Origin: Acidiphilium sp.
GTDB lineage: Bacteria > Pseudomonadota > Alphaproteobacteria > Acetobacterales > Acetobacteraceae
DNA length: 44,947 bases
Reading direction: 5' to 3'
Assembly (NCBI GenBank): GCA_028688905.1
Contig: JAQTXH010000010.1
Span: 7,026-51,972 of the forward strand
Shown here one piece after another: positions 7,378-26,696 of this stretch. A program made the position numbers and the translations under genes. A model generated the notes under the pieces. That model did not search any database. It was not told the DNA's origin and was given only the letters and a program-made list of their open reading frames with translations. Within the stretch, counting starts at the first letter, position 1. The number at the start of each line of letters is the position of its first letter.

Positions 7378-7580
7378 GATGCCTTCTCCGCAGAGGGCAC
7401 GGAAAATAATTCCTCGGCCGTCAAAGTCATCACGCGCCGGACGCGTATGAATTGGAAGCCGTCGCGGCGCCGTTCAATCGTGTCCGGCACCACCGCTTCG
7501 GTAATCGCCCAATCAGATCCGCGCAGGCGTATGATGTTTGGGCCGGGCGCATCGAGGTCTAGGATCGGTTTTTCGGTCAT
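7374..7580 (-). CDS. Hypothetical protein (68 aa)
   Basis: The short protein starts MTEKPILDLDAPGPNIIRLR and continues through a beta-rich centre (SDWAITEAVVPDTIERR) to a final helix. It shows no recognised domain. The ATG at 7580 overlaps the stop codon of the 426-residue gene upstream (ATGA), and its own stop overlaps the next start, so genes 8850-9671, 7577-8857, 7374-7580 and 7000-7377 behave as one translational unit. The longer frame reaching 7670 is out-of-frame sequence of the upstream gene. Confidence 0.7.
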   Translation of the reverse strand: MTEKPILDLDAPGPNIIRLRGSDWAITEAVVPDTIERRRDGFQFIRVRRVMTLTAEELFSVPSAEKAS

Positions 7581-8857
7581 GATGCGGCCCGCCACGCAGC
7601 CCGCAGATCGCGAATAAGGGCTTTGGTCATGTATCGCCGGGCGTCGTTGTCGATGTGCTTGGCACTCCAAGGCTCGCGCTCGTTCACGCCGCGTTCGCGT
7701 TCGGTGAGGTAGGTTTTGCGGCGGCCATAATATTCGCCGTAGGGGCCTGATGGGCCGGCAACGCGCCCGGTTTCTTCATCTGCCCCCCGCCACTGATGCT
7801 TGAACAGGCTATCGGCCAGCGTCCACACTTCGGCGCGGCGGGATGGCGCGTAACCGTGCGTCATAGCGGCTTCGCCTGCGACTTTGCGTTGCCTGCCGCC
7901 GTCGATCACCGCCAGTCCGAGACGCTTCCAGAGTGCGGATTTGCTGCGATATGAGCCGAGATCGCCGGATTCACCGACGATGATGGCGAGGCCCAGATCG
8001 CCAGCGCCTTTGATGGCTTTCCACCACGGATAGACGGGCAGTTGCTTGGCGATCGCGATCATTTGCTTTTCTGTATCGGCGCGCATGTGATCCCAGATGC
8101 GGCGGGAGTGTGCGGATGTGAGGATCATCGGGACGTTGGCCCAATGCGGCAGGGAGGGCGCAAGCGAACTGGCCTGTTCGGCGTGGATACTTTGGCCCTC
8201 CCTGCTTCCCTTGCGGGATGGTTTGCGCGCGGGCGCGAGGACAATGGCCTGTTCGGCATTCCACTGCTGGCCCGCGCGCTCGGTGGCTTTCGCCTCCGAT
8301 GGTTTACCGGCTTCGACGAGGCGTCGGACGCGCCCGATCTCTGCCCAGAGTTTCTTGCCGTCCTTGTCCTCGATCGGCTTACCGCTCGCATCTGTCAGCT
8401 TGGAGCCATCCTCAGCGACTTTCGGGCGATAACCGGCCAGTTGCGCGAGGAACGCTTCAAGCGAGCGGTCGATGCGCGACTGCGTTTTGATCGCGAACCG
8501 GCGCTGGCGTTGGAGCGATGCCAGTTCTTCGATGATGGTATCAACCGGGGAGGGCGGCGGCACTCTGGCCTGTTCGGCGACACCCTTATGGCCCTCCGCC
8601 GGTTGATTGATGTCCAGTGAGGCGGGCGCGCGATCTGTGGCCTGCTCGGCGTGAGAGGACTGGCCGACCTCACTGGATTGATCCGCGCGGCGTTCCCGCA
8701 CGCGCGGCGAGGGCGCGAGTTTGTTGGCCTGTTCGGCGAAACGACATTGGCCCTCGATTGGTGAATTGGAGGCCGCACCCTTTCGAGTGCGGCATGAGGG
8801 CGTTCGGAACATGGCCTGTTCGGCTACCCTGCCTTGGCCCTCAATCTGATCAAACAT
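7577..8857 (-). CDS. Protein with IS110-transposase-like C-terminal domain, carrying six palindromic repeat insertions (426 aa)
   Basis: Four repeat peptides (consensus GQxxxAEQAxxxxxP) occupy residues ~5-105. A helical region (ELASLQRQRRFAIKTQSRID) follows, then two more repeats at ~195-235. The C-terminal part includes WKAIKGAGDLGLAIIVGESG and SKSALWKRLGLAVIDG, which is the helix-hairpin-helix pattern of the IS110/IS116 transposase C-terminal domain. The protein ends in DNDARRYMTKALIRDLRAAW, like other phage proteins of this type. The DEDD catalytic domain of IS110 enzymes is not seen, so it is probably a DNA-binding protein rather than an active transposase. A packaging or terminase-partner role is possible from position only. 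The start overlaps the preceding stop. Confidence 0.8.
   Translation of the reverse strand: MFDQIEGQGRVAEQAMFRTPSCRTRKGAASNSPIEGQCRFAEQANKLAPSPRVRERRADQSSEVGQSSHAEQATDRAPASLDINQPAEGHKGVAEQARVPPPSPVDTIIEELASLQRQRRFAIKTQSRIDRSLEAFLAQLAGYRPKVAEDGSKLTDASGKPIEDKDGKKLWAEIGRVRRLVEAGKPSEAKATERAGQQWNAEQAIVLAPARKPSRKGSREGQSIHAEQASSLAPSLPHWANVPMILTSAHSRRIWDHMRADTEKQMIAIAKQLPVYPWWKAIKGAGDLGLAIIVGESGDLGSYRSKSALWKRLGLAVIDGGRQRKVAGEAAMTHGYAPSRRAEVWTLADSLFKHQWRGADEETGRVAGPSGPYGEYYGRRKTYLTERERGVNEREPWSAKHIDNDARRYMTKALIRDLRAAWRAAS
8149..8205 (-). repeat. Palindromic coding repeat, copy A
   Basis: The arms GCAGGGAGGGC (8149-8159) and GCCCTCCCTGC (8195-8205) pair perfectly over 11 bp and enclose 35 bases with the core GGCCTGTTCGGC at 8171-8182. 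In the gene frame it encodes GQSIHAEQASSLAP. Confidence 0.9.
8225..8279 (-). repeat. Palindromic coding repeat, copy B
   Basis: The arms GCGCGCGGGC (8225-8234) and GCCCGCGCGC (8270-8279) pair over 10 bp. The 35-base interior has the invariant core GGCCTGTTCGGC. It encodes GQQWNAEQAIVLAP. The outer arm is CG-alternating, unlike other copies, yet fully complementary. Confidence 0.9.
8540..8607 (-). repeat. Palindromic coding repeat, copy C
   Basis: A long arm, 8540-8555, pairs with 8591-8607 over 16 bp with one bulged base; GGAGGGC and GCCCTCC form the inner part. The 35-base interior has the core GGCCTGTTCGGC. It encodes GHKGVAEQARVPPP. This is the longest stem of the family. Confidence 0.9.
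8613..8677 (-). repeat. Palindromic coding repeat, copy D
   Basis: The outer arms TCCAGTGAGG (8613-8622) and CCTCACTGGA (8668-8677) pair perfectly over 10 bp. A two-base internal mismatch separates them from GGC/GCC. The core has one change, GGCCTGCTCGGC, synonymous in the gene. The interior length is again 35 bases. It encodes GQSSHAEQATDRAP. Confidence 0.9.
8708..8756 (-). repeat. Palindromic coding repeat, copy E
   Basis: The arms CGAGGGC (8708-8714) and GCCCTCG (8750-8756) pair over 7 bp around a 35-base interior with the core GGCCTGTTCGGC. It encodes GQCRFAEQANKLAP. Confidence 0.9.
8795..8843 (-). repeat. Palindromic coding repeat, copy F
   Basis: The arms TGAGGGC (8795-8801) and GCCCTCA (8837-8843) pair over 7 bp around a 35-base interior with the core GGCCTGTTCGGC. 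It lies at the very N-terminus of the IS110-like protein and encodes GQGRVAEQAMFRTP from residue ~7. Confidence 0.9.
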
Positions 8858-9671
8858 TGTACGTCTCCGAGTTTGCGGCGCTGTATTCGTTCTGGGCGAC
8901 TTCTGGCGTCACATGCTTCGCGATGCGCTCGCCGTCTGGAACGCCGGTAATCACGCGCTCGATGAACAAAGCGTCGCGGCGGTGTTCCTTGATGTAGGAG
9001 CGGCACATTTCCGGCGTGGCCTCACCGAGCGGCACATGGCCGATCATGAAGGTTTCGAAGATCGTTTTTGCGCGCCGCTCACCGAGTTTTATGAGGGTTG
9101 CTACATCGACACGCGGCGGGTTTGGCGCGCGGCGGAACGGTGCCTTGATCTCGGTGAAGCGCCCGGTTTCGTCGTCGCGGCCAACAACCTGTGTGACTGT
9201 GTGCGCTTCGATGGTTATGGGACGGGAGGGCGACCGCACTATGGCCTGTTCGGCGTAGCCTAACTGGCCCTCCCGTCCATCCGCTTGCGCGGGTTGCTGC
9301 GATGCGGGCGTATCTGCGTTGGCCTGTTCGGCACCACGCTTTTGGCCCACATCGCCCCCTTGCGGGGATTGTTCGGGAGAGGGCGGCCGTTCAGTGGCCT
9401 GTTCGGCGCCGCTAAGTTGGCCCTCTCCCTCGCCGGCTTGCGCCAGCGATTCCAGATATTCTTTTGCCCGGCTCTGCATGAGCGGGCGCATCAGTTCGAG
9501 CATCGCGAGGTTGTCCGAACTCAGGATCGCCAGCAGTGCGATGGTCCACTTTGAGCGCGGATGCGCCTTCATTACTTGGCGCGCGGCGGCTTCGAGGCGC
9601 TGTGCGGGCGTTACGCCTTGCGCGGCCATCACCTCGCCGAAAGTGCCGATTTGAGACTGTGATTGGGGCAT
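8850..9671 (-). CDS. Hypothetical protein carrying three palindromic repeat insertions (273 aa)
   Basis: Residues 1-80 form a helical domain (QGVTPAQRLEAAARQVMKAH, then a leucine-rich helix). Residues ~80-165 are the repeat region, with three copies of the GQxxxAEQAxxxxxP element separated by Pro/Gln-rich linkers. The C-terminal ~105 residues look folded again (VVGRDDETGRFTEIKAPFRR; LIKLGERRAKTIFETFMIGH). I recognise no family; the repeats sit in what seems to be the linker between two domains. Its stop overlaps the start of the IS110-like gene, so they are coupled. Being a DNA-end-adjacent gene of a packaging region, a small-terminase function is conceivable but unsupported. Confidence 0.75.
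   Translation of the reverse strand: MPQSQSQIGTFGEVMAAQGVTPAQRLEAAARQVMKAHPRSKWTIALLAILSSDNLAMLELMRPLMQSRAKEYLESLAQAGEGEGQLSGAEQATERPPSPEQSPQGGDVGQKRGAEQANADTPASQQPAQADGREGQLGYAEQAIVRSPSRPITIEAHTVTQVVGRDDETGRFTEIKAPFRRAPNPPRVDVATLIKLGERRAKTIFETFMIGHVPLGEATPEMCRSYIKEHRRDALFIERVITGVPDGERIAKHVTPEVAQNEYSAANSETYNV
9217..9280 (-). repeat. Palindromic coding repeat, copy G
   Basis: The arms GGACGGGAGGGC (9220-9231) and GCCCTCCCGTCC (9267-9278) pair perfectly over 12 bp and extend to 9217/9280 with one bulge. The 35-base interior has the core GGCCTGTTCGGC. It encodes GQLGYAEQAIVRSP in the 273-residue gene. Confidence 0.9.
9299..9355 (-). repeat. Palindromic coding repeat, copy H
   Basis: The arms GCGATGCGGGC (9299-9309) and GCCCACATCGC (9345-9355) pair over 10 of 11 positions, with one C/A mismatch. 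The 35-base interior has the core GGCCTGTTCGGC. It encodes GQKRGAEQANADTP. Confidence 0.9.
9375..9429 (-). repeat. Palindromic coding repeat, copy I
   Basis: The arms GGGAGAGGGC (9375-9384) and GCCCTCTCCC (9420-9429) pair perfectly over 10 bp around a 35-base interior with the core GGCCTGTTCGGC. It encodes GQLSGAEQATERPP. Confidence 0.9.
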
Positions 9672-9686
9672 GGAATCTAACTCCGC

Positions 9687-9872
9687 TTAGGATTGATTTT
9701 TGGATTTCCGGGCCTCGTCACCGAGCCCTCGTTCCAGCAGCATCCGTGCGGCGTCTGCGGTATTTGGTATAGGCCAGATCGTTTTGCGGAACTCATCAAT
9801 CTTGCGCCGCATCTCTTGGGAGATTCGCACGTTGAGTGCGTATGGCTGTGCTTCGACTGTATTTTGCTGCAT
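9687..9872 (-). CDS. Ribbon-helix-helix-like DNA-binding protein (61 aa)
   Basis: The segment YALNVRISQEMRRKIDEFRK is the strand-then-helix start of Arc/MetJ/CopG-type RHH repressors, and a second helix follows (NTADAARMLLERGLGD). Such proteins bind operators as dimers through the N-terminal strand. The gene is first in the leftward block and lies next to the intergenic region that drives the rightward structural operon, where a palindrome (10036-10049) could be its operator. The frame opens at 9926, but the ATG at 9872 gives a normal RHH length; the ribosome site (GGA, seven bases upstream) is weak for both starts. Autoregulation is inference. Confidence 0.7.
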   Translation of the reverse strand: MQQNTVEAQPYALNVRISQEMRRKIDEFRKTIWPIPNTADAARMLLERGLGDEARKSKNQS

Positions 9873-11781: not shown

Positions 11782-14700
11782 TTGTCCGAACATAACAACC
11801 GCAAACCCTTCATTGCCATATTCCCTGCCGACATGGCGGGATGCGGCCATGCGCGGATGATCCGCCCCGCCGTTGCGCTTGAACAGGCCGGTATGGCGAA
11901 CGTCGTCATGACGCCGAACCTTGCCGATATTGACCAGATGCGTGCCTTGGCCCCGGACGTTCTGGTATTCCAGCGCCCCAATTCACCAGAACTTGCCGAA
12001 ACGATCGGCAAATTGCGCGCGGCGCTCCCGGATACCTTTTTCGTCTATGAACTCGATGATGCGTTCGGCTTGGTGCCGGATGAATCCGCGCATAGCACGT
12101 TTATTCATTCGCAGACTGACGCCCATATGGCGACAATCATGCGCCTCTGCGATGTGGTGACGACAACAACCGAAACTCTTGCCGCCCGCATCCGCGAATT
12201 TGCCGGCGAGGAATTGAGCGTTCGGGTTATCCCGAATATGATTTTTCAGGAAGAGTTCGACAAACTCACAACGGTTCGGAAGCAAGCCCGCGCGACCAAA
12301 GGCAAGAAACTCCGTATCGGCTGGGCGGGCGGTATCGGGCATATCCCTGACTTGAAACTGATTGCCCCTGCCATCAACCAGATCGGCAACGCTGTCGATT
12401 GGGTATTCATGGCGTTGCGGCCAGATGGCGTCGATCCCGCGCTGATCGAATATCATGACGCGGTATCAACCAAAGACTATCCGGGCAAGCTGGCGTCGCT
12501 TGGTCTGGATATCCTGATTGCCCCGCTGGTGGATAACGGCTTCAACCGCTGCAAAAGCAACCTCAAACTGCTCGATGCGGCGGCGCTGGGCATCCCTGCT
12601 GTGGCGTCTGCCGTCACCCCATACACCGAAGGCCATCCGCCGCTTCTCGCATCCGTAGGGCCTTCTGCGGCGGAATGGACGGATGCGCTTGTGCGGATCG
12701 CCGCGCTGACCCCGGAACAATGCCAGGAACACGCGCGTCATCTTCGGAAATGGGCGCAGAGCTATATTTACGAAACCCACATCAAGGAACTTGCGGCGGC
12801 GTGGTTGCCTGAGGGGCCGCTTTTCAAGCGCGTTACGTCCAATATCAAACCGACCGAGTTTGTTCTGTGCGCATCTGGCATTGACCCGTTCGCGGCTGGC
12901 AAATGGGCAGACAGCGTGGGCGCGGTATCGGTTCATCCTGACATCGAAAGCGCAGCACAGGACGCCCGCAATCGGCGGTGTGCGATGCTTTGGGTTCGGT
13001 TCGGATCAATGCTCTCGTCAATTCATGCCGAGAAGATGATTGATGCGGTGAAAAAGGACGGCGGCAAAACAGCGTCGTATTCGGCGATGTCGAATCTCGG
13101 GACCGGCGTAGCGATCCCCAAAGCGGGACAATTCAACCAAACCTCGCCGGACGCCGCAGCGTGGATGACCAAGTTTTGCCTTTCGACATTCAAGCCACCC
13201 GAGATGCATGAGTTGTTGCAGCCGTCTGGTTCGTTCGTCTGGGTAACGGCGGAAGCCTTGGCGGAGATCGGTATTCCTCTGGTGGCGCGGGCAGAAGAGG
13301 AAATCGGGGTCGATGCCGCCTTGATGGATTGGTCTGTGTCGGCTCGCAAGGCAGGATTCCGGCATTATGCCGTGCCGTGGATTTACGTTCAATCCATTGT
13401 GCCGATTACCCCCAACCGGGATGTCATGGTTGCCGCGCTGAACCGGGCGCAGATGCGGTGGCGCGATCTGACTAAAGCCCAATTGCCGGATACTCTGAAA
13501 GCCGTGCGCCGGACGGCTGAGCGTGGCTATCTGGTCGATTTTTACCAAGGGCCTCCCCCGCAAGCAAAGTCGCCCGAACAGGTCTATGATCAATGGACGC
13601 TGACGTTCGATACGGCAGATCAGTTCCCTGACGCTCCGAACGTGCATGTGTTTCAAAACGAAATCTCGCATCAGGATTTGGCGCGCATCCCCTGCGATCA
13701 TTGGGTTTGTGTCGTGCCTCATGGCGTCGAACTGGCCGATCATGCTCCGGCTTTGATTGCTGCTTTTGCCGATGACGATGACGAATTTATTTTTGGTGAC
13801 GAGGATCGTATTCTTGGCGGGCGGCGCTGCGATCACTGGTTCAAGGGCAGCTATGATCGCACGCTGCTCATGCAGCAGGACTACATCACCAACGCCGCAT
13901 TTATCCGGGTCTGGCGCTTGCTGGAACTCAAAGCGGATTCACCGATTACCCGGCGCGATATCTTTGCATTGGCTTCATCAGAAACCAAAATCCGGCATAT
14001 CCCGCGCATTTTGTCCCATGTAACCGAAGACTACGTTCCTCTGATGGCCGAAGAACGGATGGCGGTCGTTTTGAGTAATGCCGGGCATCAGAAACCAACT
14101 CTGACCGCTCGCCCCTATCAGGCCCATTGGATCGACGTATCGCTTGCGCCAATTGAATCTCCATTGGTTTCGATCATCATCCCGACAAAGGACAAGATCG
14201 AACTGATCGAACCGTGCATCAAGTCGCTGATCAGCAACACCGCTTACAAGAACTATGAGGTGATCGTCGTCGATACCGGCAGCACCGATCAGGCCGTCAT
14301 TGAATACGAGCGGCGCTTGGCATCCGATGGCACGATTACGTTGTTGCGCGATGATCGGCCCTTCAATTGGTCCGCTGTCAACAATCTCGCGGCGCGGGAA
14401 GCCAAAGGCGATATTTTCCTTTTCCTCAACAATGATGTGACTTTCCATAACCCATCATGGCTGAGCGAAATGGTGGCGTACACCATGTCTGGCCCTGATG
14501 TGGGCGCAGTCGGCGCGCGGCTCTTGTTTCCAAACAGCACGATCCAGCATGTCGGTGTCATGTTTGATCGGGGTATCTGTGGGCATATCCATAAAAACAT
14601 GCCGGCACATTCCCCCGGCTATCATGGCCTCGCCGCGTTGAACCATGAAACGGATGCGGTGACTGGCGCGGTCCTGATGGTACGGCGGGACGCTTATAAG

Positions 14701-15591
14701 GATGTCGGTGGTTTCAACGAAGATTTCGTAATGAACTATAGCGATGTGGCATTCTGTCTGGACCTCCAAAAGGCAGGATACCGCAATATCGTTGTCACCA
14801 AAGCCGATATCGTTCACCACGAAAGCGCCACCCGGTCAGCCGCCAACAGTGAAACGGGCATGAGCCTTCTTCAAAAAGAGGGGAAATTGCTCGGCGAACT
14901 GTATGGAGATATCGTTTCCAAACACTGGAATCGCAATCTGCATGTCGGTGTCGATCCGAGCGGCACTTATATTCATGGCCTTAATTTTGAATTGCCCGCT
15001 TGGCCGCCCGAACCTTTTCCGTGGCTCGACGACAATCGGAAATTCGTTCTGGTCGTGAACGGCGCGACCTTGGACAATGCGGAACTCTCGCGGCGCGGGA
15101 TGATCTGCATTCACGCATTCCTCAAGGATTCCGTCATGTCGGTGATTCAGCCATCTCTTTACAACGAAGAGACGTGGGATATCCGCAAGACAGAAACCAA
15201 AGCAAATGTCCTTGATTTTTGCCGCGGTATCGGGGTCGGGGAAATCATCTTCTGTGGGTTGAACGGCCAGTCTGATGTGACCGCCCTCAATTTCATGTCT
15301 TGCCTCGGTATGCCGATCACCTATTGGCCGCGCTCCGTAGAGGCTCTGTGCCCCCGTGGGACCGGAACTTACCCAAATGGCGATGGCAAACCCCACGCCT
15401 GCGATAAAGGATGGCTGACAGGCGCTTGCGAAAGTTGCATCGAACAGCACGGCACGCCCATTGGGTATGTCGATCCAGATAATTGGCGTGCGGCATGGAA
15501 AAAGTTCATGCAGACGGCGAGGTTCAACCCTTCACACCTGGCGGATCATGGCGCAGAAGTTTCGGATTGGGTCAATGTTCCAGTCTCTTGA
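11782..15591 (+). CDS. Giant multi-module glycosyltransferase (1269 aa)
   Basis: Three glycosyltransferase-like modules can be read. Residues ~10-340 look like a GT4/GT-B unit: LRIGWAGGIGHIPDLKL and NLKLLDAAALGIPAVAS are the nucleotide-sugar side motifs. Residues ~630-770 match the first part of a bacterial GT2 family: FGDEDRILGGRRCDHWFKGS, LLMQQDYI, HIPRILSHV. Residues ~790-1010 are a full GT2 domain: SIIIPTKDK, VVDTGSTD, FLNNDV, AVTGAVLMVRRDAYKDVGGF and SDVAFCLDLQKAG. A C-terminal part has clustered cysteines (~1188-1222). The TTG start has GGAG eight bases upstream. It likely glycosylates virion or host surface glycans. A gene this large between portal and protease is odd. Confidence 0.9.
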   Translation: MSEHNNRKPFIAIFPADMAGCGHARMIRPAVALEQAGMANVVMTPNLADIDQMRALAPDVLVFQRPNSPELAETIGKLRAALPDTFFVYELDDAFGLVPDESAHSTFIHSQTDAHMATIMRLCDVVTTTTETLAARIREFAGEELSVRVIPNMIFQEEFDKLTTVRKQARATKGKKLRIGWAGGIGHIPDLKLIAPAINQIGNAVDWVFMALRPDGVDPALIEYHDAVSTKDYPGKLASLGLDILIAPLVDNGFNRCKSNLKLLDAAALGIPAVASAVTPYTEGHPPLLASVGPSAAEWTDALVRIAALTPEQCQEHARHLRKWAQSYIYETHIKELAAAWLPEGPLFKRVTSNIKPTEFVLCASGIDPFAAGKWADSVGAVSVHPDIESAAQDARNRRCAMLWVRFGSMLSSIHAEKMIDAVKKDGGKTASYSAMSNLGTGVAIPKAGQFNQTSPDAAAWMTKFCLSTFKPPEMHELLQPSGSFVWVTAEALAEIGIPLVARAEEEIGVDAALMDWSVSARKAGFRHYAVPWIYVQSIVPITPNRDVMVAALNRAQMRWRDLTKAQLPDTLKAVRRTAERGYLVDFYQGPPPQAKSPEQVYDQWTLTFDTADQFPDAPNVHVFQNEISHQDLARIPCDHWVCVVPHGVELADHAPALIAAFADDDDEFIFGDEDRILGGRRCDHWFKGSYDRTLLMQQDYITNAAFIRVWRLLELKADSPITRRDIFALASSETKIRHIPRILSHVTEDYVPLMAEERMAVVLSNAGHQKPTLTARPYQAHWIDVSLAPIESPLVSIIIPTKDKIELIEPCIKSLISNTAYKNYEVIVVDTGSTDQAVIEYERRLASDGTITLLRDDRPFNWSAVNNLAAREAKGDIFLFLNNDVTFHNPSWLSEMVAYTMSGPDVGAVGARLLFPNSTIQHVGVMFDRGICGHIHKNMPAHSPGYHGLAALNHETDAVTGAVLMVRRDAYKDVGGFNEDFVMNYSDVAFCLDLQKAGYRNIVVTKADIVHHESATRSAANSETGMSLLQKEGKLLGELYGDIVSKHWNRNLHVGVDPSGTYIHGLNFELPAWPPEPFPWLDDNRKFVLVVNGATLDNAELSRRGMICIHAFLKDSVMSVIQPSLYNEETWDIRKTETKANVLDFCRGIGVGEIIFCGLNGQSDVTALNFMSCLGMPITYWPRSVEALCPRGTGTYPNGDGKPHACDKGWLTGACESCIEQHGTPIGYVDPDNWRAAWKKFMQTARFNPSHLADHGAEVSDWVNVPVS

Positions 15592-21321: not shown

Positions 21322-21372
21322 TTGACGTAAACGGGCAAATAGTCTAATGTCTCCTGACCTCAAAATGGAGAC
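21322..21372 (+). promoter_or_regulatory. Candidate promoter overlapping an SD-masking hairpin (plus-strand homing endonuclease)
   Basis: TTGACG (21322-21327), a 17-base spacer and TAATGT (21345-21350) form a plausible promoter. GTCTCC (21349-21354) pairs with GGAGAC (21367-21372), which contains the Shine-Dalgarno for the ATG at 21377. A transcript from this promoter would start near 21357 and lack the 5' arm, leaving the site free. A read-through transcript would contain the hairpin. Confidence 0.45.
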
Positions 21373-21376
21373 TGAA

Positions 21377-22945
21377 ATGCCTGCCGCAAACCCGATCAAA
21401 CATTGCCCCGGATGTGATGACCCCAACATTCGCTCGTCTATTCCCTTTGAACTGCAATGTTCCCCATGCCGCAAAAAGGAACGAAACAGAATTTGGCGTG
21501 AGGCAAACCCCGGCGCTATGGCAAGCAATGCTAAGCGGTGGCGTGAAGCAGGAAATAAGCCAAACCGCCCCGCAGATTATAATAAAAAACGAGCGATAGC
21601 ACATAGAGAGAAGTATCATTCAGATGAAATATTTCGCCTAAAATGTAAGGAATCTGCAAAGCAATACCGGACAGGCAATCCCGAAAAAGTTAGACTATTA
21701 TTATCTGAGTGGCGCAAGAAGAATATTGACCATTCCAGAAAATACCATCGCGAATACAACTCCAATAGGAAGGCGAACGATCCCGAGTTCCACAAACGGG
21801 CTTTGGACGCGGCATCTCTATGGCGGCATCGGAACTGGAAACCGGCGACTACAGGGCTTGGATGGGTCCATGATGTTGAAAAATCTAAACTGGTGGACGG
21901 AAACCACATCAGAAAATTAAAGGCTTGGCAAAACGGGTTTTGTTATATCTGCAATAATCCAATGGGCGAAAGTACGGTTGAACACATAATCCCGAGATCA
22001 ATTGGCGGCTCTAGCGTTACGCAGAATGTTGTCTTGTCGTGCAGTAAATGCAATTATTCGCGACAGCATCGCTTGCTTAATGTTGACTGGAAACCGGAAA
22101 ACAGAGAGCCAAATGTCGAAAATTATTTTGTGACGTATAAGACAATTGGCAACGCTCTTGCTAATGAAGGATTTGACTATCGCCAGACTGACGATGGATA
22201 TTTTGAAATAAAAGGAAATAATGCCACAAAGAATCTGTATATTCTTTCTACGTTCCAATGTAGCGAGAGGAACATAGCCACGTCATCGCAAAAGGTTTCT
22301 GTAGAAATTCAGAACATTGACCCGGAAGCAATCATTATATTTGATAATGAGTGGTACAGCCGAAAGTCAGCGGTCATGAATGCTCTTCGTTCTAAAATTG
22401 GGATTGCCGAGCGTGGGCGTGGCGCGCGCAAAATGGATATCGTAGAGATCAGTGCAGAGGCGGCTAGGGAATTTCTTGACAAAAATCATATTATGGGCGG
22501 CATTACCGAGCCCTATCGGATTGCCCTTATGGACGGCAATGAAATTTATGGCGTTGGTGTTTTCGCCGATCGTGAAAATGGCGCTAGATATGAGTGTGTC
22601 CGGCTTTCTTTCCGGGGGCACGTACCCGGAGGGATGAGTAGGATTATATCGGCGCTATTCCGACTTTACGGCAGACGCCCCATAACTACATTTATTGATA
22701 GCCGGTACGCTACAGGAATCGGCCACGACGCCATTGGGTTCAAAAATATAGGTAGGACACCAGCATCCTATCAATGGGTTTTTCCTGATCGGGTGCAACA
22801 CCAACGCTACCTGTCAAATGACAACAAATGTTCATACAATCTTTTGTATTTCAACCCGGAACTAACTGTTGATACGAACATCGGGATAAATGGGGTTCAC
22901 CGAATTTGGATACCCGGCAGGTGGCGGATGATTCTGGACGCCTAA
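21377..22945 (+). CDS. HNH homing-type endonuclease with Mom-like C-terminal domain (522 aa)
   Basis: The N-terminal part has CPGC and CSPC pairs and a run of basic, repeated helices typical of DNA-reading extensions. The HNH nuclease is at ~189-226: CYIC, VEHIIPRSIGG (H203) and LSCSKCN, with paired cysteines holding zinc. Residues ~315-345 (AIIIFDNEWYSRKSAVMNAL) match a segment common in phage homing endonucleases. Residues ~360-520 resemble the GNAT-fold Mom-like domain (FLDKNHIMGG, YECVRLSFRGHVPGGMSRII). It is AT-richer than its neighbours, carries its own promoter candidate and is flanked by terminators, so it is probably a mobile insertion. GGAG six bases before 21377 sets the start. Confidence 0.88.
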   Translation: MPAANPIKHCPGCDDPNIRSSIPFELQCSPCRKKERNRIWREANPGAMASNAKRWREAGNKPNRPADYNKKRAIAHREKYHSDEIFRLKCKESAKQYRTGNPEKVRLLLSEWRKKNIDHSRKYHREYNSNRKANDPEFHKRALDAASLWRHRNWKPATTGLGWVHDVEKSKLVDGNHIRKLKAWQNGFCYICNNPMGESTVEHIIPRSIGGSSVTQNVVLSCSKCNYSRQHRLLNVDWKPENREPNVENYFVTYKTIGNALANEGFDYRQTDDGYFEIKGNNATKNLYILSTFQCSERNIATSSQKVSVEIQNIDPEAIIIFDNEWYSRKSAVMNALRSKIGIAERGRGARKMDIVEISAEAAREFLDKNHIMGGITEPYRIALMDGNEIYGVGVFADRENGARYECVRLSFRGHVPGGMSRIISALFRLYGRRPITTFIDSRYATGIGHDAIGFKNIGRTPASYQWVFPDRVQHQRYLSNDNKCSYNLLYFNPELTVDTNIGINGVHRIWIPGRWRMILDA

Positions 22946-24951: not shown

Positions 24952-26601
24952 TCACGAGTAAAGAATGTACCGTTTTTGTTTCAAACCGAACAATTGCCTA
25001 TAGCCGTGTGCTTCCGCGTTTTCAGATTCAGATTTATCTTCTCGATAATGAGGCATCCACGAACTTGCGGCAGTCCGAGCAAACTTCAATCGGTTCTCAA
25101 TACCTTGTGGGTTGACGTATCCATAAGACGGCGCGCGGCTCTCCCCGTCTAATGTAAATCCAACCTTGAGATATCCATTGCCCTCCCCAAAACGTGGGTC
25201 ACAATAGCTGACGATCGGCAAACCGTCATTAAAATGGCGCTGGAAATGCAAAATCAACTTTGAAACGCCTCCCATAATAGACCCTCGAAAAGCCATGCGC
25301 GTCAATTCAATGTGTTCATCTCGTTTCGTAAATGACGCAGCGCCATAAATTTCTTCGTTTCGTATCAAACCTAGAATTACGGATGCCCCTGGGCGGCTTC
25401 CTTGGATATGCCATTGGTCCATAAATACTTCGGTCGCGGCGGCTGGCAGGAGGTCAATTCCGAATTTTCTGGCCCCTTCTGAATCATGCATGCCGCATTT
25501 AGCTTTCAAGACATTTATTGTGGCGTCCGAACGTAATTGCCATTCATGGTCCCAGATCAAAATAGCATCAGGAAAATCGGTTCGTAGTTTTTGACATGAA
25601 AAGGTCGGGTGTGAATAACTTAAAGAAAATGAAGACATAACAATTATTTCCTTTCCATTCAGTTTTATAACTCCATTTTCAATAGTTCCGCCAATCTCAT
25701 TAGCCAACTCATGCGAGCACGTAGGGTTGAAGATTTTCATGGCGGCGGCGTTTCTGTGTATATTCCATTCGTGACTATAAATCTTGGCATGTTTTCTGAC
25801 GTTGCATGAATGACACGACATAACGATGTTTCCAGGTGCGTTTTTGCCGTTTCTTGATAATGGTATAATATGCTCAATATCCTTTTCTTTATTCAAGGTG
25901 TCGCCGCAGTAATAGCACTTTGCATCTTGCCAATGGTGAAGGTGACTAATAAACTCATTTGTAACTATTTCTTTGCTATAGTTATTCCTTCTATCACGAT
26001 ACTCGGCATGTTTGATCCTATAATACATAGGATTCTTTTTTCTATAATTTGCTCCATAAGCCAATCTCTTATCCCTATTTTTAATCCTGTGCGCGGCAAT
26101 CTTTTCTTTGTTGTTTTCGCTATAAGTCCGATTTATTGCTTTGCGTTCTTCAACGCTTTTCGATAGCCACCGCTTTTTTGCATTTTCTTTTACGCGAGAA
26201 TTGTATTCCGCGTCTGTGTGGTATCTAATGCGCTCTTTGGCTATACTGGCCTTAACCGATTCTGGAGAACGGTTTGCTTTGTTGTTTTTGCGCCAATTCC
26301 TGATATACGCGATTAGTTCCTCTCTGTTCTCTTCTCGGTATTTCTTGCTTTTTTCCGCGACATGTTCACGGTTAGCAGCAACGTATCGGCGCTTGGCTTC
26401 TGCAACAGCTTCTGGGTTTTTAGCGCGATACTCTCGATTATAGGCCGCCCGTTTTTCTTTATTATTCTCGGCGAACTGGCGGTTCTTCTCCCGAGTGCAA
26501 TCCCGGCAAAGTCGATCCAAACCATCTTTTTCGCGATTGTTCACAGTGAAATCCTGATTTGATTTCTCAATAAGGCATTTTTTACATATTTTGATATTCA
26601 T
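24952..26601 (-). CDS. HNH homing-type endonuclease, minus-strand paralogue (549 aa)
   Basis: It starts with a zinc-type CKKCLIEKSNQDFTVNNREK block with a second CRDC pair. A long basic region follows, built of repeated YRxxN/ExxxxxxRxYxxxN units (for example KRAAYNREYRAKNPEAVAEA), likely reading DNA. The HNH core is CYYC, IEHIIPLSRNG and MSCHSCN. The rest parallels the plus-strand enzyme at 21377-22945: AILIWDHEWQLRSDATINVL, then a Mom-like domain with FMDQWHIQGS and IELTRMAFRGSIMGGVSKLI. The gene is AT-rich and opposite to all its neighbours, as expected of a mobile insertion. Start 26601 is supported by AAAGGAAC; the frame extends to 26676. Confidence 0.88.
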   Translation of the reverse strand: MNIKICKKCLIEKSNQDFTVNNREKDGLDRLCRDCTREKNRQFAENNKEKRAAYNREYRAKNPEAVAEAKRRYVAANREHVAEKSKKYREENREELIAYIRNWRKNNKANRSPESVKASIAKERIRYHTDAEYNSRVKENAKKRWLSKSVEERKAINRTYSENNKEKIAAHRIKNRDKRLAYGANYRKKNPMYYRIKHAEYRDRRNNYSKEIVTNEFISHLHHWQDAKCYYCGDTLNKEKDIEHIIPLSRNGKNAPGNIVMSCHSCNVRKHAKIYSHEWNIHRNAAAMKIFNPTCSHELANEIGGTIENGVIKLNGKEIIVMSSFSLSYSHPTFSCQKLRTDFPDAILIWDHEWQLRSDATINVLKAKCGMHDSEGARKFGIDLLPAAATEVFMDQWHIQGSRPGASVILGLIRNEEIYGAASFTKRDEHIELTRMAFRGSIMGGVSKLILHFQRHFNDGLPIVSYCDPRFGEGNGYLKVGFTLDGESRAPSYGYVNPQGIENRLKFARTAASSWMPHYREDKSESENAEAHGYRQLFGLKQKRYILYS

Positions 26602-26608
26602 GTTCGGT

Positions 26609-26653
26609 GTTCCTTTCAACAAGGAACGTAGCGAATAACGGAAACATATGCAA
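26609..26653 (-). promoter_or_regulatory. Candidate promoter overlapping an SD-masking hairpin (minus-strand homing endonuclease)
   Basis: On the minus strand TTGCAT (26653-26648), a 17-base spacer and TACGTT (26630-26625) form a weak promoter. GTTCCTT (26627-26621) pairs with AAGGAAC (26615-26609), the ribosome site of the ATG at 26601, around a 5-base loop. A transcript starting near 26618 would lack the 5' arm and leave the site open, as with the plus-strand paralogue. Confidence 0.4.
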
Positions 26654-26696
26654 GCCTTGTCTAACCCAACAAGCAAATATCCAGCACTATTTTAAC

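Follow-up and report, generated by a model that had tools for sequence, protein, structure and literature searches.

Probable TIGR-TasA guide units encoded in frame within two overlapping prophage genes of an Acidiphilium species

Rickettsia palindromic elements (RPE) are palindromes that lie in frame within coding sequence, and in the bridge RNA of IS110 the guides flank an internal loop on both sides. In TIGR-TasR arrays, box C is CCA, box D is UG and the spacers are 9 nucleotides (nt) long, while other arrays can have divergent boxes (Faure et al. 2025, PMC12045711). Two clades of the TasA type have "stem-loop arrays", in which two spacers of 8-12 nt lie between box C and box D, the loop may be constant, and palindromic stems stand in place of edge repeats. 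According to the main text of the same paper, the arrays lie on one or both sides of tas, one example being intergenic. The guide RNA (tigRNA) is cut from the transcript with the help of Tas, and a Tas dimer with one tigRNA recognises 18 bp of DNA, whose opposite strands pair with the two spacers; the gaps between the spacer matches of a target are 0-2 nt. Here I analysed a 44,947-nt stretch of an Acidiphilium sp. contig (JAQTXH010000010.1; hereafter the window), in which nine palindromic units at 8149-9429 are read in frame within two adjacent genes. With a probability of roughly 0.87, judged from sequence, structure models and analogy, these units are guide units (tigRNA precursors) of a stem-loop TIGR-TasA system, coded in frame in tasA and in its operon partner.

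In-frame units with covarying stems

A prophage covers the window, and its integrase, terminase, portal, capsid and contractile-tail genes were recognised. The two genes that carry the units overlap each other and lie on the strand opposite to the packaging genes.

8850..9671, - strand: gene A, partner protein of 273 amino acids (evidence: BLAST relatives 5′ of tasA in other phages; structure model)
7577..8857, - strand: gene B, TasA-like protein of 426 amino acids (evidence: phrog_4285, profile of 51 relatives, Foldseek, disorder and helix prediction)

Three units are in gene A and six in gene B, all in one frame and one orientation, as a preliminary description of this DNA had stated.

9375..9429, - strand: unit 1, gene A; spacers ACTTAGCGG and CTGAACGGC
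9299..9355, - strand: unit 2, gene A; spacers AAAGCGTGG and ACGCAGATA
9220..9278, - strand: unit 3, gene A; spacers GTTAGGCTA and TAGTGCGGT
8795..8843, - strand: unit 4, N-terminal part of gene B; spacers AGGCAGGGT and TGTTCCGAA; first box D is AG, not YG
8708..8756, - strand: unit 5, gene B; spacers ATGTCGTTT and ACAAACTCG
8613..8677, - strand: unit 6, gene B, with one stem mismatch; spacers GTCCTCTCA and CAGATCGCG
8549..8597, - strand: unit 7, gene B, stem extending beyond a bulge; spacers TAAGGGTGT and GAGTGCCGC
8225..8279, - strand: unit 8, gene B, between the coiled coil and the C-terminal domain, absent from an ortholog; spacers GCAGTGGAA and TTGTCCTCG
8149..8205, - strand: unit 9, gene B, between the coiled coil and the C-terminal domain, absent from an ortholog; spacers AAGTATCCA and GTTCGCTTG
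8772..8793, - strand: linker hairpin between units with a GNRA tetraloop (GAAA), an example

On the coding strand, each unit consists of a closing stem ending in GGG or CGG, CCA, 9 nt, YG, the segment CC GA(A/G)CA GG, a second CCA, 9 nt, YG, and the CC stem. Both CCA boxes and both 9-nt spacers are present in all nine units. Box D is YG in 17 of the 18 places (15 CG and two UG, with one AG). The CCA pair and the loop are constant across the units save one base in unit 6, and the 9-nt stretches differ in every unit. The preliminary description had missed this last point, that two stretches of 9 nt per unit are unrelated between the copies. It correctly gave the core GGCCTGTTCGGC (+ strand) as unchanged in eight copies, the ninth having a single synonymous base change. 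When up to two mismatches are allowed, the core occurs at 25 places in the window, against 5.9 expected and a maximum of 11 in 100 shuffles. The inner interval is indeed 35 nt in every unit, and 18 of these 35 bases are unrelated between copies. The flanking GGGC/GCCC pairing, which had been ascribed to every copy, is perfect in eight and is interrupted by a C.C mismatch in the unit at 8639. Likewise, the peptide GQxxxAEQAxxxxxP opens with GQ in eight units and with GH in one, where GQ had been claimed for all nine. The spacing between units is a multiple of three inside each gene (72-87, and 321 between clusters), and the claim of such spacing fails across the gene boundary, where the distance is 430.

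The pairing of the stems was assessed in an alignment of 15 units, nine from the window and six from the orthologous locus of a Proteobacteria metagenome-assembled genome (L015/L018) that came from a scan of an 84,980-species collection. The arms vary between units and pair within their own unit, giving 88 contiguous pairs over the 15 units. None of 20,000 re-pairings of the arms reached that number, and chance pairing was rejected. The fraction of paired cells is 86.2%, compared with 71.5% after shuffling. Eight of the 12 outer pairs are changed on both sides; the covariation score is 0.360, whereas shuffling gives 0.110 and sliding the partner 0.108 at most. In L015/L018, counterparts at the same place exist for four units of gene B: three of them have different yet paired arms, and the arms of the fourth are unchanged. 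The two window units between the coiled coil and the C-terminal domain have no counterpart there. The conserved codons are nearly invariant at synonymous sites, and the neighbouring codons are free. The palindromic, protein-coding, in-frame nature of the elements was thus borne out, and the presence of two units that the ortholog lacks indicates, at the level of sequence, that such units undergo gain and loss. The gene A ortholog carries two units, and the frame shifts from one to the other close to seven consecutive A residues (L018, about 13745); this shift is either a sequencing error or real.

How the spacers evolve was seen in 14 pairs of orthologous units with a flank identity of at least 75%, pairs that are not independent of one another. 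Box C is 100% identical, the stems 87-92% and the flanks 80-83%, compared with 44% for spacer A and 48% for spacer B. Between loci L043 and L035 (the latter is L141 in the frame survey described below), the stems and the loop are the same and the spacers are unrelated; in L035, the unit occupies the C-terminal end of the tasA frame. Loci L084 and L082 have spacer B in common but not spacer A, and both units are in the tasA frame. Since the boxes, the loop and the stem pairing are kept while the 9-nt stretches turn over, these stretches behave as guide spacers and not as copies of a transposed sequence.

The linkers between the units were also inspected. Hairpins with a GNRA tetraloop occur on the - strand with loops near 9441, 9363, 9288, 8784 and 8214. 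With a stem of at least 4, five such hairpins are in the 0.84 kb of array and 30 in the remaining 44 kb, where the array regions were chosen after looking. A bulged hairpin with a GGAA loop lies between units 5 and 6; by eye, its counterpart in the ortholog has a GAAA loop, a changed yet paired stem and the same bulged T. The GNRA hairpins are possibly spacers between units or processing signals. An Rfam search over 7500-9750 gave three matches with E-values up to 5, none of which reached the gathering score.

Gene B, its viral relatives and the reading frame

Gene B matches the phage "transposase" family phrog_4285 (2.3e-10). A profile of 51 gene B relatives matches TasR (9mty_A, the TIGR-TasR complex) at 2.5e-18 and TasH at 9e-5, and 11 of the 51 relatives match Pfam Transposase_20. 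The profile match spans residues 145-297 of the 331-residue TasR chain. It lies behind the N-terminal nuclease of TasR, and therefore gene B belongs to the nuclease-less TasA kind; no nuclease domain was seen in the gene B protein. In a Foldseek search of the PDB with the gene B model, ranks 1-9 are TasR and TasH chains (9mty, 21kl and others; E-values 3.7e-5 to 1.5e-3), followed by the IS110 recombinases ISCro4 and IS621 (0.02-0.6) and, lower still, by Prp31 and Nop5. The AlphaFold model has a coiled coil at about residues 104-183 and an IS110/Nop-type C-terminal domain at about 242-425. No secondary structure is predicted before about residue 104, and the array-coded parts are disordered, with a per-residue confidence (pLDDT) below 50 at residues 1-59 and 204-223. 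Profile and fold thus predict that gene B encodes a Tas protein of the TasA kind with a Nop/IS110-type RNA-binding domain.

The protein of gene A is modelled as a helical N-terminal part, an array-coded disordered linker (residues 84-154) and a small C-terminal domain. It has no Pfam match, its model (predicted template modelling score 0.33) has no fold match, and the one PHROG match, to a family of unknown function, is weak (E-value 0.02). Relatives of gene A were found by BLAST upstream of tasA at several viral loci.

Is the in-frame coding common among tasA loci? I performed a survey of the best 80 of the 144 confirmed IMG/VR loci that were fetched with a TasA alignment. The unit finder, built from the published grammar and the window, required CCA-N9-YG twice and a stem of at least 7. 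It gave 336 matches in 0.80 Mb, compared with 10 in one codon-shuffled copy. A loop limit of 11 nt was set after viewing the length distribution; matches with longer loops numbered 9 and 8 on the two strands, which is background. After de-duplication, 232 units within the loop limit are on the tasA strand and two on the opposite strand, and at least one unit is present at 62 of the 80 loci. The open tasA frame contains 150 of the 232 units, with 82, 64 and 4 of them in reading phases 2, 1 and 0, respectively. In phase 0, a box D of TG followed by A is a stop codon, and A is the commonest first base of the 4-nt loops. Upstream of the conserved match, 144 units lie within 1 kb; 101 of them are joined to the match by a stop-free path in the tasA frame, compared with 8 and 11 in the shifted frames. 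The stops inside the in-frame units number 0, 39 and 81 by frame, the zero being so by definition. The spacing of the in-frame units modulo three is distributed as 62/18/14, and 20 units fall within the conserved TasA match itself. Most relatives have a 4-nt loop and two reading phases, and hence other encoded peptides than the window units.

With gp50 of Mycobacterium phage Rich as the query, a TasA homolog was found in 84 records out of 50,697 from phages, and 76 of the 84 are of Mycobacterium. I scanned 14 records of cultured phages with looser thresholds (box D AG allowed; stem of at least 6 or at least 7, depending on the scan), and 12 of them have units; no unit was found in Microcystis phage Mvi-JY20 or Arthrobacter phage Talia1610. 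Phage Rich has three units in gp50 and two in gp51; a weaker one outside them appears in the looser scan. Rhizobium phage RHph_X2_25 has two units in the gene and an irregular one behind it, and Rhodococcus phage Peregrin has a single, intergenic unit. Among the Gordonia phages, six of nine units are in gp46 of LonelyBoi, four of seven in gp50 of Spooky, and one of six in gp42 of Morrissey, the rest of which are intergenic. All ten units of BENtherdunthat within the 50 kb examined are in annotated genes (eight in gp59 and two in gp57). In an alignment of six TasA sequences, the conserved domain of BENtherdunthat, LonelyBoi and Spooky carries about 38 extra residues inserted in frame, which are lacking in Rich, Morrissey and BPBiebs31. 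The finder places two units of BENtherdunthat and one of LonelyBoi inside this insertion, and none of Spooky. Of the empty-site comparisons, this is the clearest. Together with units 8 and 9, which the ortholog lacks, it supplies, for the TasA protein, the comparison of homologues with and without units at the same sites that the preliminary description had proposed. The Fromanvirus TasA homologs among the matches listed (L150-L152, L158, L159) are annotated as "transposase", "DNA binding protein" or "hypothetical". According to passages of PMC3706429, gp21 of Mycobacteriophage Omega was interpreted in 2013 as the insertion of an IS110-like transposon, and homologs were named in the A1 phages Bxb1, BPBiebs and Euphoria. 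Given the Tas kinship, Omega gp21 may deserve a second look.

Copies and relatives were sought elsewhere. In the own 3.4-Mb genome, the exact pattern occurs only at this locus, and the covariance-model search that had been suggested gave nine matches there, all of them at this locus. The exact window-type pattern was found in two IMG/VR contigs, judged unrelated by eye, and three times in the 84,980-species collection; one of these is true, and two lie in an apparent transporter gene (by eye) with unpaired arms. Searches with one or both window proteins gave nothing in IMG/VR or PLSDB, and only the own genome among 100 and among 385 genomes. In INPHARED, gene A has no match and gene B three weak ones. 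The family phrog_4285 has matches in four of 289 genomes of the class, and the three besides the own genome look like ordinary IS110 transposases.

Elsewhere in the window, two large genes resembling homing endonucleases or HNH proteins lie among the structural genes (21347-22945, + strand; 24952-26676, - strand). A very large gene of 1269 amino acids, glycosyltransferase-like by eye, immediately follows the portal gene (11782-15591, + strand).

Proposed function and rival explanations

By analogy with the system of Faure et al., the expression, processing, DNA binding and biological role of the units would be as follows. The mRNA would fold as a string of hairpins, each of which presents, between its closing stem and its small loop, a pair of 9-nt spacers framed by box C (CCA) and box D (YG). 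After excision of these hairpins from the transcript, a TasA dimer would bind them, and each of the two spacers would pair with a different strand of an 18-bp DNA target. Binding without cutting is the likely outcome because TasA has no nuclease, and such occupancy of DNA would most probably be directed at competing elements, for example silencing a rival phage or another mobile element. The spacer peptides lie in linkers predicted to be disordered, and therefore the spacers could change with the fold unharmed. Since the guides form part of the message, guide making and TasA making would compete. A bolder idea, which is tentative and which I consider somewhat doubtful, is that the tasA message serves as both mRNA and guide precursor, so that excision of a guide destroys the message, and guide supply and TasA level control one another. 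The 9-nt cassettes, three codons' worth, would be swapped in frame within living genes by a process of spacer replacement, and the linkers would evolve as a by-product.

Several observations weigh against guide units of a TasA protein. In the pooled target scans, matches at the published gaps of 0-2 did not exceed those of shuffled spacer pairs. With 257 spacer pairs against 1.6 Mb, counting both strands, and up to two mismatches, gaps of 0, 1 and 2 gave 16, 15 and 8 matches, compared with 12-25 in three controls; the register with a gap of -1 gave 28, compared with 7-20. The 43 spacer pairs of named phages gave 18 matches in 2.2 Mb (controls 16 and 22). The 32 Gordonia units against four Gordonia phage sequences, one of them partial, gave 0 matches versus 1.65 at two mismatches and 22 versus 22.75 at three. 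As for gene B, a Pfam search with the window protein alone gives no match, and the whole-protein TM-scores of its model to TasR are modest (0.32/0.45). In the survey, 18 of the 80 loci have no unit at the finder threshold, and the finder accepts C or T in box D on account of the window units, whose box D is mostly CG, as opposed to the UG published for TasR arrays in the main text of PMC12045711, where boxes can diverge. Outside the tasA frame are 82 of the 232 units, some in the upstream partner gene and others in other frames or in intergenic DNA; no frame is clearly preferred by the 35 units downstream of the conserved match (16/14/7). All units of the five Fromanvirus loci examined are intergenic, in the gap 5′ of tasA.

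Individual spacer matches were noted in the scans. The spacer pair of LonelyBoi (L161, 36851) matches gp55 of Spooky (L160, 37978) at 17 of 18 positions with a gap of 2, and both phages infect G. terrae 3612. It is the sole case with one mismatch (control mean 0.15, maximum 1) and is not evidence by itself. The first-unit spacers of HarryOW and BigPaolini (L152/L158; TAACGGTGA/TGATGACGT) and of PacerPaul (L159; TAAAGACGA/CGATGACGT) resemble two variants of one target site. A BLAST search of phages for these two targets, of untested sensitivity, found nothing, a further point against guide function. A complementarity between spacer A and spacer B that was noticed by eye in some units does not exceed that of shuffles, and the two spacers show no covariation (largest |z| 1.8 over 12 registers).

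Could the units be TIGR-type in origin but have no present role beyond mRNA structure, for instance if TasA regulates itself by binding its own message? The position of the units in the tasA message and the lack of targets in the scans fit this, and yet the spacers turn over at fixed sites where stems and boxes stay, in one pair with spacer B common and spacer A different, and a regulatory binding site has no need of such turnover; I regard it as improbable. The preliminary description had instead proposed a phage analogue of RPE, a protein-coding palindromic mobile element that inserts itself in frame and spreads within genes. The single orientation, the reading frame, the palindromes, the tolerance in disordered linkers, and the presence and absence at homologous sites would all suit such an element. 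This proposal was not upheld and is now very unlikely. The copies in the own genome are confined to the tas operon and have only the boxes, the loop and the stem pairing in common, with half of the inner interval (18 of 35 bases) unrelated. Furthermore, the same unit grammar occurs in intergenic DNA of other phages, and the units cluster around one family of RNA-guided proteins.

Least probable of all is that the repeated motif GQxxxAEQAxxxxxP was selected for the protein and the DNA palindromes are a by-product. Frame and peptide are constant in 27 of 27 rows of window-type units, partly by construction, since selecting the DNA pattern fixes the conserved codons. Against this stand the covariation of the stems and the near invariance of synonymous sites in the conserved codons, as well as the relatives whose loops and phases specify other peptides. 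Units with the same boxes and stems also exist in intergenic DNA, and the coded parts are predicted to be disordered. Ordinary duplication was likewise rejected.

If the units are TIGR-TasA guides, programmable guide RNAs reside within coding sequence, and one strand would encode a folded effector, its disordered linkers and a library of guides, the hypervariability of which would be tolerated thanks to the reading frame and protein disorder. This would account for the odd repeats in phage "transposase" genes. It would also place TIGR-TasA in cultured phages, where TIGR expression, natural targets and the role of a nuclease-less TasA become testable. Array scans restricted to non-coding DNA will miss in-gene units.

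Comparison with known systems

In the literature collection searched, which does not cover preprints outside it, no title or abstract reporting guide arrays in coding sequence was found, and arrays of this kind are not described in PMC12045711, its supplements (table S1, figures) aside. RPE share with the window units the in-frame palindromes; unlike RPE, the window units are not dispersed through the genome and have no fixed element sequence. IS110 has a related C-terminal domain, whereas the gene B model is without the N-terminal DEDD/RuvC-like domain, and in the window numerous guide units take the place of a single bridge RNA. TIGR-TasR and TIGR-TasH provide the closest solved structures, and the CCA box and 9-nt spacers are alike, but their RuvC or HNH nuclease and dual-repeat arrays have no equivalent in the window. 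The TasParB operon of PMC12045711 pairs tasA with a ParB-like gene, and gene A is not recognisably ParB-like. Going by the main text of that paper, the stem-loop type of TIGR-TasA is the most similar: it is phage-borne and combines a nuclease-less protein of the Nop/IS110 type with hairpins that have variable palindromic stems and two spacers between the boxes. The difference is that the window units are read in frame inside tasA and its partner gene. The locus thus probably represents a known machinery with a new way of storing guides.

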